DNA of 64,000 nt from a virus: positions 40,449-104,448 of the IMG/VR virus record IMGVR_UViG_3300046474_000239; one strand, given 5' to 3'. How positions within the stretch are numbered: position 1 is the stretch's first letter; the number at the start of each line of letters is the position of its first letter. Below the pieces are notes generated by a model. The model was not told the DNA's origin, made no database searches, and saw only the letters and a program-made list of their open reading frames with translations. The position numbers and the translations under genes were made by a program. Shown here piece after piece: positions 8,660 through 53,492 of this stretch.

Positions 8660-8790
8660 AGGTACTGGTTGAGCTTATAGACCTTTCGTTGCGGGTGGCT
8701 GGGATGCTGGCGCTGTGCGCCCTGGCCATACCCGAGAAGAACCAGACGGCACAGACAGTTCACGCACTGGCCGTCACCCTCCTGACCTGA
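8656..8790 (+). CDS. Tiny membrane peptide with TTG start, 44 aa
   Basis: AAGGAGG lies seven bases before a TTG that overlaps the previous stop as TTGA. The product has one hydrophobic segment (about residues 9-26). The stop codon ends exactly where dyad 5 begins. A strong ribosome-binding site supports it despite its size. Confidence 0.55.
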   Translation: MKVLVELIDLSLRVAGMLALCALAIPEKNQTAQTVHALAVTLLT

Positions 8791-8804
8791 TGCAATCAAT
8801 TGCA
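8791..8804. promoter_or_regulatory. Dyad site 5 (CA centre)
   Basis: Exact core placed directly after a TGA stop and 12 bp before the next ATG; it ends at the edge of the ribosome-binding site CACGGAG of the gene at 8816. Confidence 0.85.
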
Positions 8805-8815
8805 CGGAGCGAAAC

Positions 8816-9106
8816 ATGGCTAAGTTAGGGACCAAATACTTCACGCGGGGCAAGGTGATGATAGGTATCGCTGCCGAAGGCATTAACCGCCCGCTGATCC
8901 CCTTCGATCCACGGGTGGACAAGATTGACTACTGCGAACTGACCAAGAAGTGCGAGGGCATCACAGCCGTACAAGCTGAGGGCCTGTTTGCCGACCTGGA
9001 GAAACACTTCATGGGGCAGGTGGCTACCGAGTGGCTCAAGCTGCCGGGCTTCGTGGACCTGGCCGACACCCGCAAGATCCGTGTATTGAACGAGGAAGTG
9101 GCATGA
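8816..9106 (+). CDS. Hypothetical protein, 96 aa
   Basis: The start follows CGGAGCGAAAC directly after dyad 5. Small soluble alpha/beta protein with Cys residues at positions 40 and 46. Coupled by ATGA to the next gene. No family recognised. Confidence 0.6.
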   Translation: MAKLGTKYFTRGKVMIGIAAEGINRPLIPFDPRVDKIDYCELTKKCEGITAVQAEGLFADLEKHFMGQVATEWLKLPGFVDLADTRKIRVLNEEVA

Positions 9107-48894: not shown

Positions 48895-48908
48895 CCGGCC
48901 AAACAGAG

Positions 48909-48931
48909 ACCCGCTTCGGCGGGTTTTCTTT
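48909..48931 (+). terminator. Rho-independent terminator after lysis genes
   Basis: ACCCGC-TTCG-GCGGGT (48909-48924) with UUCG loop followed by TTTCTTTT. Confidence 0.9.
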
Positions 48932-48943
48932 TGTCCAGTGTTT

Positions 48944-48971
48944 TTGATTAATCTTACAATTTTGATATTAT
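48944..48971 (+). promoter_or_regulatory. Strong promoter of the AAA+ operon
   Basis: TTGATT (48944-48949) and TATTAT (48966-48971) are 16 bp apart in the most A+T-rich stretch of this region. Expected start near 48978. Dyad 16 follows at about +8 to +21, where a bound protein would block elongation or clearance. Confidence 0.7.
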
Positions 48972-48984
48972 AGGGATGTCGTCG

Positions 48985-48998
48985 TGCAATTGATTGCA
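48985..48998. promoter_or_regulatory. Dyad site 16 (TG centre, operator position)
   Basis: Exact core with outer G-C pair, in the early transcribed region of the strong promoter and 60 bp before the AAA+ start codon. The best-placed copy for an operator role. Confidence 0.9.
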
Positions 48999-49057
48999 CC
49001 GACCTGGTCTTTAAAGACTGAGCCTTTCCGGCTCCAACCAAGCTCAAGGAAAACAAC

Positions 49058-50755
49058 ATGACCACACCAGCAGTCTCCACCCTCGGCACGTCCGAGCAGC
49101 AACTAATGGACAGCGTGTACAAGCTCTCGGATGCCGGGGGTTCGATTATCCAGATCCGTTCGCGGGAGGTTCCGCGTACCTTGACGACCCTGCGCAAATC
49201 CATCCTGGCGGACGACACCAACGTCTACAAGGAATGGGACCAGATCAACGGGTGGCGCAACATCTTCAGTCTGGAGAACTTCAGCGAGCACATCACGCCT
49301 GGCGACAGTCAGTTGGACTATGACACCGCAGTCCTGGCGCCGATGAACGATATGCGCAACGCGACCAGCGCGGTAAATGCGGACAGCGACAAGATGCACT
49401 ACTTCATCTATGTCGACTTCCACACCTTCATCGAAGGCAACCCACGGATCATTGCCGCGATGCAGCAGTACGCCGCAGTCCTGCCCGCTCGTAACGTCTG
49501 CATCATCCTGCTCACGCCGGAGGTCAACTTGAGCGACCTGCCACTGGGCACCGTCCTGTCCGTCGACGCACCTACCCCTACGGCTGAAGAGCTGGAAGGT
49601 TGCTTGCGCCGCCTGGTAGAAGCCAGCTCCGATGCCTGGCCCGAAGAGCTGGACATCAAGGACGCCGACTATCACCTGATCAGCCACCTCGGCCTGGGCA
49701 TGACACGCTACGAGTTCGAGACGTATGCATCCATCGCCATCGTCGAAGCGGGGCACAAGAAAGACCCAATGCTGACCGCCGAAGACCTGGTTCACGGCAT
49801 CAGCGTGGGTAAGACCGAGGTCGTGAAACAGTCCGACATCCTGGAGCTGTTCCACACCGAGGACATGAGCGAAGTGGGCGGCATGCAGCGCTTGAAGGAC
49901 TGGATCAACAACCGGGCGGACGCCTTCAGCGACGAGGCCCAAGAGTTCGGCGTGGAAGCACCGAAGGGTATTGCTATCGTCGGCGTGCCAGGCACCGGTA
50001 AGTCCCTCGTAGCCAAGGCCATCGCCAGCGCCCTGAACGCCCCACTCCTGCGCCTCGACTTCGGCCGGGTCTTCAGCAAGTTCATCGGCGACTCCGAAAG
50101 CCGTATGCGCTCCGCCTTGAAGATGGTTGAGTCCATGGGCCACCTGGTTCTGTTCGCGGACGAGATCGACAAGGGTCTGGGCGGTATTGGCCAGGGCGGC
50201 GGCGACAGCGGCACCAGCTCCCGCGTACTGGGTGCGTTCCTCACCTGGATGCAGGAGAACAAGTCCAAGGTCTTCGTTATCGTGACCGCCAACCGTATCG
50301 ACGGCCTGCCGCCTGAGCTGTTCCGCAAGGGCCGCCTGGACCAAGTCTTCTCGGTAGGCCTGCCGTCACCGGCCGAGCGCGTCGAAGTCCTGGAAGTGCA
50401 CTTGCGCAAACGCGGGCGGGACATCAATGACTTCACCGACAAGGAAGTCAATGCGTTCAAGGCCGCCAGCGAAGGCCGGGTGCCCGCAGAGATCGAAGCA
50501 TCTGTAAAGGATGGCCTGGTCTCCGCGTTCAACGATGACGATGCACAGGACCTGGAGATGCACCACATCATCGACGCGCTCGAAGAGTCGGTGCCTATGT
50601 CCAAGTCTCACGCTACCGCCATCAATGCCATGGTCGAATGGGCTCGCGACAATGCCACGCCCGTCAACTACGAAGACGTGCCGGTAGTACCAAAGTCCGC
50701 TGGCCCAGGCGGGGAACCAGTACGCCGCAGCGTAGTACGTCCACGCCGAGTCTGA
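49058..50755 (+). CDS. AAA+ ATPase, Ycf46-like, 565 aa
   Basis: Residues 1-260 form an N-terminal domain like that of Ycf46-type ATPases. The AAA core has Walker A GVPGTGKS (309-316), Walker B LVLFADEID (363-371), sensor-1 TAN and an RKGRLDQVF arginine-finger region. The C-terminus ends in VVRPRRV. Leads an operon with DUF1257 and DUF2997 genes; in bacteria and plastids the same families occur together, but their task is unknown. Preceded by CAAGGAAAACAAC. Confidence 0.85.
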   Translation: MTTPAVSTLGTSEQQLMDSVYKLSDAGGSIIQIRSREVPRTLTTLRKSILADDTNVYKEWDQINGWRNIFSLENFSEHITPGDSQLDYDTAVLAPMNDMRNATSAVNADSDKMHYFIYVDFHTFIEGNPRIIAAMQQYAAVLPARNVCIILLTPEVNLSDLPLGTVLSVDAPTPTAEELEGCLRRLVEASSDAWPEELDIKDADYHLISHLGLGMTRYEFETYASIAIVEAGHKKDPMLTAEDLVHGISVGKTEVVKQSDILELFHTEDMSEVGGMQRLKDWINNRADAFSDEAQEFGVEAPKGIAIVGVPGTGKSLVAKAIASALNAPLLRLDFGRVFSKFIGDSESRMRSALKMVESMGHLVLFADEIDKGLGGIGQGGGDSGTSSRVLGAFLTWMQENKSKVFVIVTANRIDGLPPELFRKGRLDQVFSVGLPSPAERVEVLEVHLRKRGRDINDFTDKEVNAFKAASEGRVPAEIEASVKDGLVSAFNDDDAQDLEMHHIIDALEESVPMSKSHATAINAMVEWARDNATPVNYEDVPVVPKSAGPGGEPVRRSVVRPRRV

Positions 50756-50765
50756 GGAGAGCGCC

Positions 50766-51386
50766 ATGAGCGACGGCACACAACGGGTCAGCCTGACCTA
50801 CGGGAAAGTCAACCTGAAGAACTCCAGCCTTACGCTGGCCAGCCTTCGGATTACGGCCCCGTTCAAACGTGAATCGGCTGCTAACACCGGCCGAGCCGAA
50901 CAATACTCGAAGGAGTACATCCAGAGCACCCGCTACCGTGACATCGGCGGCGGCTTCACCAGGCAGCGCGTGATTCACCCTTCGGGGACATTGCTGAGCG
51001 TGCAGGCGACGAAGACCAAGAACGGCGTTCTCAACGCAGAAGCGGTGATCCTGCTCCGGCTGCGCACAGGGGCGGACATGCTCTCGATCAACATCAAGCT
51101 GCCAACCAGCCCAGACAGCCTCCTGGGGGATACCCTCCAGGCGTTTGTCGGGGAGGCAGACATCATTAGCTGGGAAGAGCTGCGGATCCTGGGCATCGAC
51201 TGCCCGAAGTCCTACCAGAACCGCTACGGTAACGAAGACGAGATAGACGAGCTGCTGGAGGTCAACGTGGTCCGCAGGGGCAACATCAGCAAACCACAGC
51301 TCGTAGCCGTCTCCACGTCGGAAGGCACCGTGGTCCGGGCGGTGGGTACTGAGGCGGTTCGCCGCGTCAAGATAAGGAGGCACTGA
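50766..51386 (+). CDS. Hypothetical protein of AAA+ operon, 206 aa
   Basis: GAGGAGAGCGCC precedes the ATG, 10 bp after the ATPase stop. Beta-rich soluble protein ending RRVKIRRH, one of the shared basic tails. No family recognised; possible ATPase partner by context. Confidence 0.65.
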   Translation: MSDGTQRVSLTYGKVNLKNSSLTLASLRITAPFKRESAANTGRAEQYSKEYIQSTRYRDIGGGFTRQRVIHPSGTLLSVQATKTKNGVLNAEAVILLRLRTGADMLSINIKLPTSPDSLLGDTLQAFVGEADIISWEELRILGIDCPKSYQNRYGNEDEIDELLEVNVVRRGNISKPQLVAVSTSEGTVVRAVGTEAVRRVKIRRH

Positions 51387-51387
51387 C

Positions 51388-52371
51388 ATGTCGAACGACG
51401 ACGACGACGAGATAAGGGGTACTGCGGACTTTCCTACGCTGAGTGCCCAGGTGGCCCAGGCGCTGCTCGACGACCCGCCGCCGCCAAACCCTGCGCTTAT
51501 GCGTCTGCTATCCACTGAGCGGAGCGGTAGACAACCAGACCCGCCGAACTACCAGTCAATGCCGGACCCCGGACAGTCACCCTTCGATAGAGCGTTCGTG
51601 GAAGTGCGTAGGGCGACGGAGAACATTGCGCTGGGGTTAGCTGGCGTAGGGCGGGCCACCTACGCTCAGCGTATCAACGAGATGGCCCGCAGGGTGGACC
51701 CACGGCTGAACGAGTTCCGCATGACTCTGCCGGGCGGGGTCATCCAGTCAGTTCAGATGGAGCGGGTGGTAGCCCAGGCTAGGTACGACTACCACCATGT
51801 AGAACACACCATGGTGAGCCTGGGCAACCCGTTCAACGGGTCGATGGGCCAGGAGATCTTCAACCGGATACAAGTCGCCACGGGAGGAAACAGGGAGCTG
51901 CTCCAGTTAATGCCCGCTATCCTAAACCAGTTCCAGGGCGCACAAGGTTCCACCGCTCGCGACCAGATGGTACTGGCGACCTGCATAATGCTCCTGGTCG
52001 AGGATGACGCTTGGCACGACTCCGGGATGAACAACGTCACCGGGTACGAGTTCCAGGTGGATCGAGACATCAGGACCATGGAGCACCACCTCGTCATGCA
52101 CGGGCGGAGGGCGGTCGACACTGCCCAGCAGCTCATGAATGCGAGTGGCCCGGCACGCAATGCGGCCAGCACCTACACCGAGTCACTGCGGCCGTCGCGT
52201 CCAACGGAGAAGAAAGCCCCAGAGTTGCCTAAAGCGCCAACCGGCCGCAGGCTGCGACTGGGTAAGGCAGTAAGCAACGTAGAACCAGGGGATGTCAGTG
52301 TCCCTACACAACCCTCGTCCGATGGGCGAGAATCGACTCGTAAGGTAAATCTCCGCAAGCGGCGGACCTAA
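51388..52371 (+). CDS. Hypothetical protein of AAA+ operon, 327 aa
   Basis: AAGGAGGCACTGAC precedes the ATG. Acidic start (NDDDDE), Pro-rich linker, a helical core (residues 70-240) and a C-terminal linker ending RKVNLRKRRT. The core resembles no family I know. Position suggests a substrate or adaptor of the ATPase. Confidence 0.65.
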   Translation: MSNDDDDEIRGTADFPTLSAQVAQALLDDPPPPNPALMRLLSTERSGRQPDPPNYQSMPDPGQSPFDRAFVEVRRATENIALGLAGVGRATYAQRINEMARRVDPRLNEFRMTLPGGVIQSVQMERVVAQARYDYHHVEHTMVSLGNPFNGSMGQEIFNRIQVATGGNRELLQLMPAILNQFQGAQGSTARDQMVLATCIMLLVEDDAWHDSGMNNVTGYEFQVDRDIRTMEHHLVMHGRRAVDTAQQLMNASGPARNAASTYTESLRPSRPTEKKAPELPKAPTGRRLRLGKAVSNVEPGDVSVPTQPSSDGRESTRKVNLRKRRT

Positions 52372-52378
52372 ATCAAAG

Positions 52379-52392
52379 TGCAATCAATTGCA
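52379..52392. promoter_or_regulatory. Dyad site 17 (CA centre)
   Basis: Exact core between two genes of the AAA+ operon, ending two bases before the GGGAGGA ribosome-binding site of the DUF1257 gene. A GTG at its left edge is in frame with that gene. Confidence 0.85.
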
Positions 52393-52404
52393 CGGGAGGA
52401 AGAT

Positions 52405-52848
52405 GTGTCTCACACCAGCGCAGTCAAAGCCATCGCAATCAGCTCCATTGAGTCCCTGCAAGCTGCGATCACCGAGCTGAACAGCATGGGCGTAAAGTGC
52501 AGCCTGATCGCCAACGCCAAACCTCGTGCCTACTTCCAGAACCAGGAAGGCATGGGTCAAGCCGACTTCGTAATCAAGCTGGATGACAGCCGTTACGACG
52601 TAGGCCTGTACAAGACTCCCTCGGGCGGTTACGAGGCTCGCACCGACTGGTTCGGCCAGGACGTGGAGAAGATCCTCGGCACCAAGAACTACAACAAGGG
52701 CAACCAGGAGCAGGCCAAGCTGGGCAAGTTGTTCCAGATGTATGGCGTGCACGCGGCGATGAACGAAGCCCGCCGCAAGGGGCTCCAGGCTACCCGCCAG
52801 AAAGGCGCGGACGGCAAGGAACAAGTGATAATTACGGGCTACCGCTAA
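52405..52848 (+). CDS. DUF1257 (Ycf35-like) protein, 147 aa
   Basis: The GTG at 52405 is chosen because GGGAGGA stands just upstream; the protein then begins M-S-H-T, as DUF1257 proteins usually do (MSH). Pattern SSIESLQAAITELNSMG, YDVGLYKTPSGGYEARTDWFG and a helical C-terminus fit the family. DUF1257/Ycf35 is found beside Ycf46-like ATPases and DUF2997, as here. Role unknown. Confidence 0.75.
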   Translation: MSHTSAVKAIAISSIESLQAAITELNSMGVKCSLIANAKPRAYFQNQEGMGQADFVIKLDDSRYDVGLYKTPSGGYEARTDWFGQDVEKILGTKNYNKGNQEQAKLGKLFQMYGVHAAMNEARRKGLQATRQKGADGKEQVIITGYR

Positions 52849-52891
52849 CAGTCGGTAGAAACTCCCCACCCACAACCAGTAGGACACCATC

Positions 52892-53092
52892 ATGCAGAAG
52901 CGAGTAGTTGTCACCGTGGACCCGGACGGGACCACCTCCATCGACGCCCAGAACTTCAAGGGCAAAGGCTGCCAAGATGCGACCGAGCAAGTTGCCCTGG
53001 CCTTGGGCGGCGTAACCCGCGATAAGTCGGATGACCGTAAAAAGCCCGATTACTTCGCGACCAACCCCGGCACCAACACCCTGAAGGGCTAA
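52892..53092 (+). CDS. DUF2997 family protein, 66 aa
   Basis: VVVTVDPDGTTSIDAQNFKGKGCQDATEQVALALG matches DUF2997 (strand, pDG, strand, GF-x-G-x2-C, helix). Small partner of the DUF1257 protein and the AAA+ ATPase in the same operon. The conserved Cys may be functional. Confidence 0.75.
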   Translation: MQKRVVVTVDPDGTTSIDAQNFKGKGCQDATEQVALALGGVTRDKSDDRKKPDYFATNPGTNTLKG

Positions 53093-53120
53093 GGCCATGA
53101 AGGACGAGAAGGAGATGGAC

Positions 53121-53492
53121 ATGGGAATGCTATCGAACAACCTCGACAAACCGCAGGATGCTTTGGTGATCACGTTCGATGAATTCGGCGCGGCCGAGTC
53201 ATTGCACATTGATCAATTCGACCTGGGGTTCCTGGGGAGCAAGAAGATCACGCGAGCTACGGACATCCTGTTTGACGAGGCTTCGCAGTCCTGGACCATC
53301 TACCTTCTCACTGAAGGTAAAGACCCAACCTTGCCCTGGAAGGGGTGCAAGGGTCTGCCGACCTACGAGGTCGCACGGTCTGTCGAAGTGGCCTGGCTGA
53401 ACCTCTGCCGAGTCAACGACGCGGACCCGAAGAGCGATACAGGGCATGTGTATTTGAACCAAGCTCGGAAGGTTAACGGTCTCGCAATTTGA
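53121..53492 (+). CDS. Hypothetical protein, 123 aa
   Basis: The ATG at 53121 has GAAGGAG six bases upstream; in-frame ATGs at 53097 and 53115 are alternatives. Alpha/beta protein with no recognised family. Last gene of the AAA+ operon before a terminator. Confidence 0.6.
   Translation: MGMLSNNLDKPQDALVITFDEFGAAESLHIDQFDLGFLGSKKITRATDILFDEASQSWTIYLLTEGKDPTLPWKGCKGLPTYEVARSVEVAWLNLCRVNDADPKSDTGHVYLNQARKVNGLAI

Follow-up and report, generated by a model that had tools for sequence, protein, structure and literature searches.

The closest described relatives of the genes treated here are Ycf46, Ycf35 (DUF1257) and DUF2997, whose conservation reaches from the plastids of red algae to IncC plasmids and phages. 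In cyanobacteria, the DUF1257 and DUF2997 genes sit next to each other, together with the ferredoxin gene fed7 (PMC4284462). In red-algal plastids, the presence of ycf34, ycf35, ycf46 and pbsA is associated with habitat (PMC5940233). As cited in PMC7496141, ycf46 belongs to a stress operon, and its loss lowers EcaB activity (Jiang 2015). Our literature search for an account of the three as one system, or of their tails, found nothing. Here, we ask a single question of a phage operon that carries all three genes: how might such a machine choose the proteins on which it acts? The operon lies at positions 49058-53492 of “the window,” by which we mean the whole stretch of 64,000 nucleotides analyzed (the final 64 kb of the 104,448-base virus record IMGVR_UViG_3300046474_000239). 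Our best reading, to which we give a probability of roughly one half, is that it encodes a AAA+ remodelling machine directed by a tag: a flexible C-terminal tail would bring in its partners.

The operon and its tails

The genes form a single predicted transcription unit (49058-53492), flanked by lysis genes and replication genes, in the order AAA+ (AAA, below), B, C, DUF1257, DUF2997 and F:

49058..50755, plus strand: AAA+ ATPase, 565 amino acids (aa); PF00004 3.1e-28, full-length phrog_8638 8e-158
50766..51386, plus strand: gene B, 206 aa; predicted all-beta fold with a disordered tail, conserved in the phage module
51388..52371, plus strand: gene C, 327 aa; a variable slot, tail RKVNLRKRRT
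52405..52848, plus strand: DUF1257 (Ycf35-like), 147 aa; GTG start, Shine–Dalgarno sequence GGAGGAA, PF06868 26.1 bits (cut-off 22.2)
52892..53092, plus strand: DUF2997, 66 aa; PF11211 34.5 bits (cut-off 24.1)
53097..53492, plus strand: gene F, 131 aa or fewer (start perhaps 53121); phrog_38408, core of the phage module

The original prediction, made from the sequence alone, had noticed basic tails on the ATPase and on the products of the genes at 50766 and 51388, and it had the hunch that these tails matter. They are indeed there: the ATPase ends in ..RRSVVRPRRV, B in VRRVKIRRH (encoded at 51357-51383) and C in TRKVNLRKRRT, with a second tail-like copy, RRLRL, farther inside C. The hunch itself has been strengthened by the enrichment of a motif on ATPase and partner alike, in phages and in bacteria. 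To judge from the sequences, the AAA and a neighboring partner tend to share a C-terminal R-x-Φ-[DEKRN]-Φ, a pattern that is new here and that, in the window, both B and C display.

In phages, we searched with [RK].Φ[DEKRN]Φ.{0,3}$, which matched 26/81 AAAs and 22/75 immediate downstream genes vs. 1/75 distant genes and 7/466 open reading frames (ORFs) on the reverse strand (Fisher about 1e-18 for the AAA and about 1e-15 for the next gene); since the pattern was written after the phage tails had been inspected, these counts are descriptive and amount to no test. The fairer test is that of the unchanged pattern on bacterial loci, which were fetched after it had been fixed: there, it matched 26 of 30 HHH proteins and 30 of 74 AAAs, compared with 14 of 546 other genes. 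A stricter form, R.[ILVM][DE][FLIVWM]$, was found on 28/30 HHH and 28/74 AAA proteins, on 0/134 members of other operon families and on 2/583 proteins elsewhere, and the AAAs that carried it were concentrated at loci with an HHH gene (21/22, against 7/52 at the remaining loci); the Fisher values of about 1e-43, 5e-27 and 1.5e-11 are again descriptive, because this form was picked after the bacterial tails had been viewed.

Pairs of tails from single loci give an idea of the resemblance:

L090: AAA ..VRALDL, partner ..ARALEL
L029: AAA ..GRVVDL, partner ..GRVLDI
IncC: AAA ..GRKLAIED, partner (a nearby protein of 377-394 aa) ..GKRKIILD
Corndog-type: AAA ..VRVLDL, partner ..YALDFEEVV

No mutual homology was detected among the partners (beta-sandwich B, helical B′, the HHH proteins and the C genes), the residues that precede the tail vary across the HHH set, and in B and HHH proteins the tail is placed after a folded domain. 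Homology between B and the actinophage-type B′ (phrog_11021), which we considered, is unsupported (hhalign 0.07%). Of the 551 ORFs in the 104-kb record, just 3 show the tail in its basic form within their final 20 residues: B, C and one gene of 96 aa. The last (window 8816-9106), the one ORF of the record with such a tail that does not belong to the operon, ends in TRKIRVLNEEVA; a copy of the dyad described below lies upstream of it (8790), and a homologue with 58% identity is found in the record that holds locus L013.

Occurrence in phages, plasmids and bacteria

The operon represents a genuine, widespread module for protein handling. With profiles built from the window, Pseudomonas SM1, Rhizobium RHph_I4 and L338C, Aeromonas HJ05, Agrobacterium JP1 and Rhodobacter RcKickapoo, we found AAA, B, DUF1257, DUF2997 and F together at 26 of 80 IMG/VR loci. 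Adding the named phages and the window, the full set stands at 33 loci, representing about 30 distinct phages or phage-like contigs, with AAA–B–DUF1257–DUF2997–F as the recurrent order. The gene set proposed from the sequence therefore does recur elsewhere, in these phage loci (and its AAA/DUF1257/DUF2997 triad on plasmids and in bacterial genomes), with one exchange of membership: AAA, 50766, DUF1257 and DUF2997 hold their places, and 51388 proves to be a variable slot, its seat in the five taken by F (53097), which we count as core because it recurs with the other four at these 33 loci. In actinophage-type loci (L041, L059, L067-L071, L082, L083, L090 and L004), a family of 113-137 aa (phrog_11784, MPCDT...HSHDGG.TWH) is regularly found downstream of the AAA; its homology to DUF2997 or DUF1257 is unsupported (hhalign 5.9% and 0.7%).

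On plasmids, the triad of AAA, DUF1257 and DUF2997 keeps varied company. It is accompanied by DUF3150 on a Ca. Manganitrophus plasmid, by a PF13353 radical SAM protein on P. polymyxa and Rhodococcus plasmids and by Hsp70/GrpE on Nostoc and Pseudanabaena plasmids; it is also present on Bacillus and P. rhizovicinus plasmids. (Literature searches on DUF3150, on samunavirus with AAA and on PaMx31 with AAA found nothing.) The IncC backbone has the triad as well, its DUF1257 member being detectable by alignment only, and IncC plasmid NZ_AP026526 (L102, 19360-23126) adds an extra gene with an AAA-like tail. The AAA match itself turns up in hundreds of conjugative plasmids of the collection.

The co-occurrence of the three genes in bacteria, which the original prediction had put forward as known, is borne out on plasmids and in genomes of many phyla. 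Our scan of bacterial genomes yielded 80 loci, spread over many phyla and including some archaea; at a distance of up to about 7 kb from the AAA, DUF2997 was found at 43, DUF1257 at 24 and both at 21. At many loci, a 182-aa family occupies the place of DUF1257; by profile comparison (hhalign 81%, E 1.2e-5), it is probably a DUF1257 homologue. Other recurrent neighbors at the 80 loci are PflA-like radical SAM proteins (37), HHH (22), WD40 (16) and Hsp70 (13). The radical SAM association does not extend to the window phage: the Fer4_12 radical SAM profile (PF13353) has no match anywhere in its record. A second bacterial architecture (L105-L124 and L180) combines AAA, WD40, Hsp70, DUF1257, DUF2997 and radical SAM, with tails FDIEI and PLQLE. 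At L139:240-5282, seven HHH_3-family genes are clustered next to radical SAM and AAA; all of their products end in ER-x-[ILV]-D-[LFI], and most have a predicted N-terminal membrane helix.

The individual proteins

The ATPase has a degenerate AAA-like N-terminal domain, an active-looking C-terminal AAA domain and the basic tail. The signatures of a classical AAA ATPase are intact (Walker A GVPGTGKS, Walker B DE368-369 and the arginine fingers RKGRLD, all three conserved, and also TAN410-412), and the N-terminal 250 residues have no Walker A. Compared as a profile with the C-terminal AAA module of its own family, this N-terminal part matches the sensor-1/lid half at an hhalign probability of 64% (E 6e-5), moderate support for the Ycf46-type layout of one degenerate and one active AAA domain; layout and gene neighbors together suggest assignment to the Ycf46 family. 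Matches to IetA-type proteins (PADLOC IetA 7.6e-19, NCBIfam IteA 2.4e-13) were also obtained, the IetA match being limited to the C-terminal AAA domain.

The naming of the two small partners as DUF1257 and DUF2997 has survived profile searches, both scores lying above the curated gathering cut-offs. The DUF1257 protein begins VSHTSAVK... from the GTG at 52405, which, with its GGAGGAA, is the likely start, given that the alternative at 52378 falls within a dyad. Its phage relatives have in common MSHT, YDVG and a C-terminal helix-strand. AlphaFold2, given the family alignment, models it as alpha/beta with a predicted local distance difference test score (pLDDT) of 92.0 (modelled from 52402, one residue early), and DUF2997 has a G-x-x-C whose G and C are invariant across phages, plasmids and bacteria. 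The family-alignment model of B is an all-beta sandwich (pLDDT 91.8), and its tail, at a pLDDT of about 55, contains a nearly invariant arginine, R199. Foldseek against the PDB gave no match at E<=0.001 for either the DUF1257 or the B model (top hits at template modelling scores <0.4); B matches SM1 gp27 and a single protein from an uncultured phage. For C (51388), no homologue was detectable in the relatives examined, and no mutual homology was detected among the genes that follow B and precede DUF1257 in the window, SM1, L013 and L018.

What the tail may do

How might these pieces work together? A Ycf46-like ATPase, presumably hexameric, would work with the accessory proteins DUF1257, DUF2997 and F, and partners—B in all of these phages, the variable C in some—would dock through the tag R-x-Φ-[DEKRN]-Φ, which the ATPase of such systems often bears too. 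Threading or pulling driven by ATP could then remodel or deliver the tagged partner or its complex. The receptor for the tag would most likely lie within the machine, perhaps in the N-domain of the ATPase, a candidate suggested by the anticorrelation of tail charge with N-domain charge (uncorrected for phylogeny). The larger claim, that this is an undescribed system in which Ycf46-type ATPases with DUF1257 and DUF2997 recognize a C-terminal R-x-Φ-[D/E/K]-Φ tag attached independently to unrelated partners in phages, plasmids and bacteria, so that a swap of partner retargets the machine, seems to us an even bet. Protein remodelling, one of two roles first suggested for the operon, is the most natural reading for a classical AAA+ ATPase; the other, host takeover, is left unsupported by the presence of the same triad in bacterial chromosomes and, as ycf46/ycf35, in red-algal plastids.

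Several observations pull against a tag-directed machine. The ATPase tail of the window, basic as it is, falls outside the motif; about two thirds of phage AAAs have no motif match; and the WD40/Hsp70-type bacterial systems end without Arg (FDIEI, PLQLE). The tag is thus not universal, as the window's mismatched ATPase tail and the different tails of the WD40/Hsp70-type systems make plain. The charge relations (AAA vs. B tail, rho 0.48, p 0.008; AAA and B tails vs. ATPase N-domain, -0.41 and -0.52; n=29 phages) are uncorrected for phylogeny, and the genes were called with a simple longest-ORF caller.

The alternative that survives best, although we hold it to be a good deal less probable, is a common dock: AAA and partner would bind the same third body, making B a co-chaperone or an alternative cap and not cargo. 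A tail on the ATPase itself as well as on unrelated partners is what such a dock would produce, and there is a precedent, for Mpa (an AAA) and Bpa (a non-AAA) share a C-terminal GQYL for docking to the 20S proteasome, and HbYX tails offer another. Yet no conserved third component could be identified as the dock, and the net charge of DUF1257 rises with the charge of the B tail, which is not complementary.

Two further explanations strike us as unlikely. The tail could be a degron that marks partners for unfolding, and possibly for degradation by a host peptidase, with the operon clearing its own or host-associated proteins. The classical AAA unfoldase fold would suit this, and C-terminal tags are typical degrons, but the tail is also borne by the AAA, and neither a peptidase domain nor a conserved protease gene nearby was seen. 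Alternatively, the tails could simply be basic ends that bind nucleic acid or membrane and have no common receptor. They are arginine-rich in this phage, and, in the window, the DNA polymerase likewise ends in an RR stretch, as do some proteins of the structural region; however, the actinophage-type and bacterial versions (RALDL, GGRTLDF, ERNIDL) are non-basic and still place R-x-Φ-D-Φ at the terminus. Least probable is recruitment by the sliding clamp, with the tail as a divergent form of the beta-clamp-binding motif (QL[SD]LF-like) that would link the module to DNA replication: some actinophage-type tails (QLDLI, RQLDF, ALDLF) look the part and the operon precedes O-like initiator and DnaB genes, but nearly all tails have Arg in place of the Gln that defines clamp motifs, and basic versions such as RRVKIRR do not fit.

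The shared tail is a first testable clue to how such a machine chooses its partners; a tail common to motor and partners allows peptide binding tests and the prediction of partners from sequence alone.

Signals around the operon and the nature of the record

The following signals border or interrupt the operon:

48906..48927, plus strand: terminator-like hairpin, separating the lysis genes from the operon
48944..48971, plus strand: promoter-like site TTGATT-16-TATTAT with TG ahead of the -10 (a consensus match only)
48984..48999, no strand assigned: dyad GTGCAATTGATTGCAC, immediately 3′ of the promoter-like site, among 30 genome-wide copies
52378..52393, no strand assigned: second operon copy of the dyad, between C and DUF1257, at the same position in the nearest relative, L013
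53509..53524, plus strand: terminator-like hairpin at the operon end

Of the promoter, dyad operator and terminator once ascribed to the operon as its own, the promoter-like site (one of 4 consensus matches in the region vs. 1.6 expected) and the flanking terminator-like hairpins stand. The dyad as an operon-specific operator does not, its 30 perfect sites being spread over the 104-kb record (0 in a reversed-pattern control). The window has 18 of them, vs. 0.4 expected by chance, at 308, 776, 1063, 6248, 8790, 11822, 14487, 20359, 23355, 26627, 28717, 36144, 40987, 45379, 46863, 48984, 52378 and 60736; copies stand ahead of the AAA and ahead of DUF1257, and several others lie within genes. These copies probably serve in global repression or in partition, as dispersed sites like stoperators or parS.

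The record behind L013 has 27 dyad sites at <=1 mismatch, two of them at equivalent places in the operon, and Stenotrophomonas phage DLP_5, which forms a phagemid (PMC5834331, PMC7326821), has 12, one of them upstream of its AAA gene. Outside the window, two neighboring proteins of our record (G000:C1:7998-8255 and 8703-8963; L188, L189) match ParB_N, one of the two above the curated cut-off. Because DLP3 and DLP5, which are phage-plasmids, likewise have two ParB_N-type proteins according to PMC7326821, a phage-plasmid lifestyle is likely, and we take the record to be that of a large siphophage, probably of the phage-plasmid type.

Comparison with known systems

How does this operon stand beside systems that are already described? 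IetAS and SgiAT of SGI1 have a related AAA domain and differ in their partner, a subtilisin-like serine protease that has no counterpart among the phage operon proteins; for want of that partner, we reject an anti-phage or toxin–antitoxin reading of the IetAS type. Mpa/Bpa and the HbYX tails offer the likeness of one short C-terminal motif carried both by an AAA ring and by a partner unrelated to it; the motif is another one and the phage system has no proteasome, so the analogy is a mechanistic one only. The plasmid and chromosomal loci are closer, with the same triad and, mostly, a further protein nearby, and in IncC that protein (377-394 aa) and the AAA have similar tails; bacterial and some plasmid versions differ in adding PflA-like radical SAM, HHH_3, WD40 or Hsp70 proteins. 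With Ycf46 (slr0374) and Ycf35, the phage proteins have in common the layout of a degenerate N-terminal and an active C-terminal AAA domain and the adjacency of DUF1257 and DUF2997 seen in cyanobacteria. The difference is that, in the phage, all three genes share one operon with B, C and F. The phage version is a compact, laboratory-tractable form of the machine.

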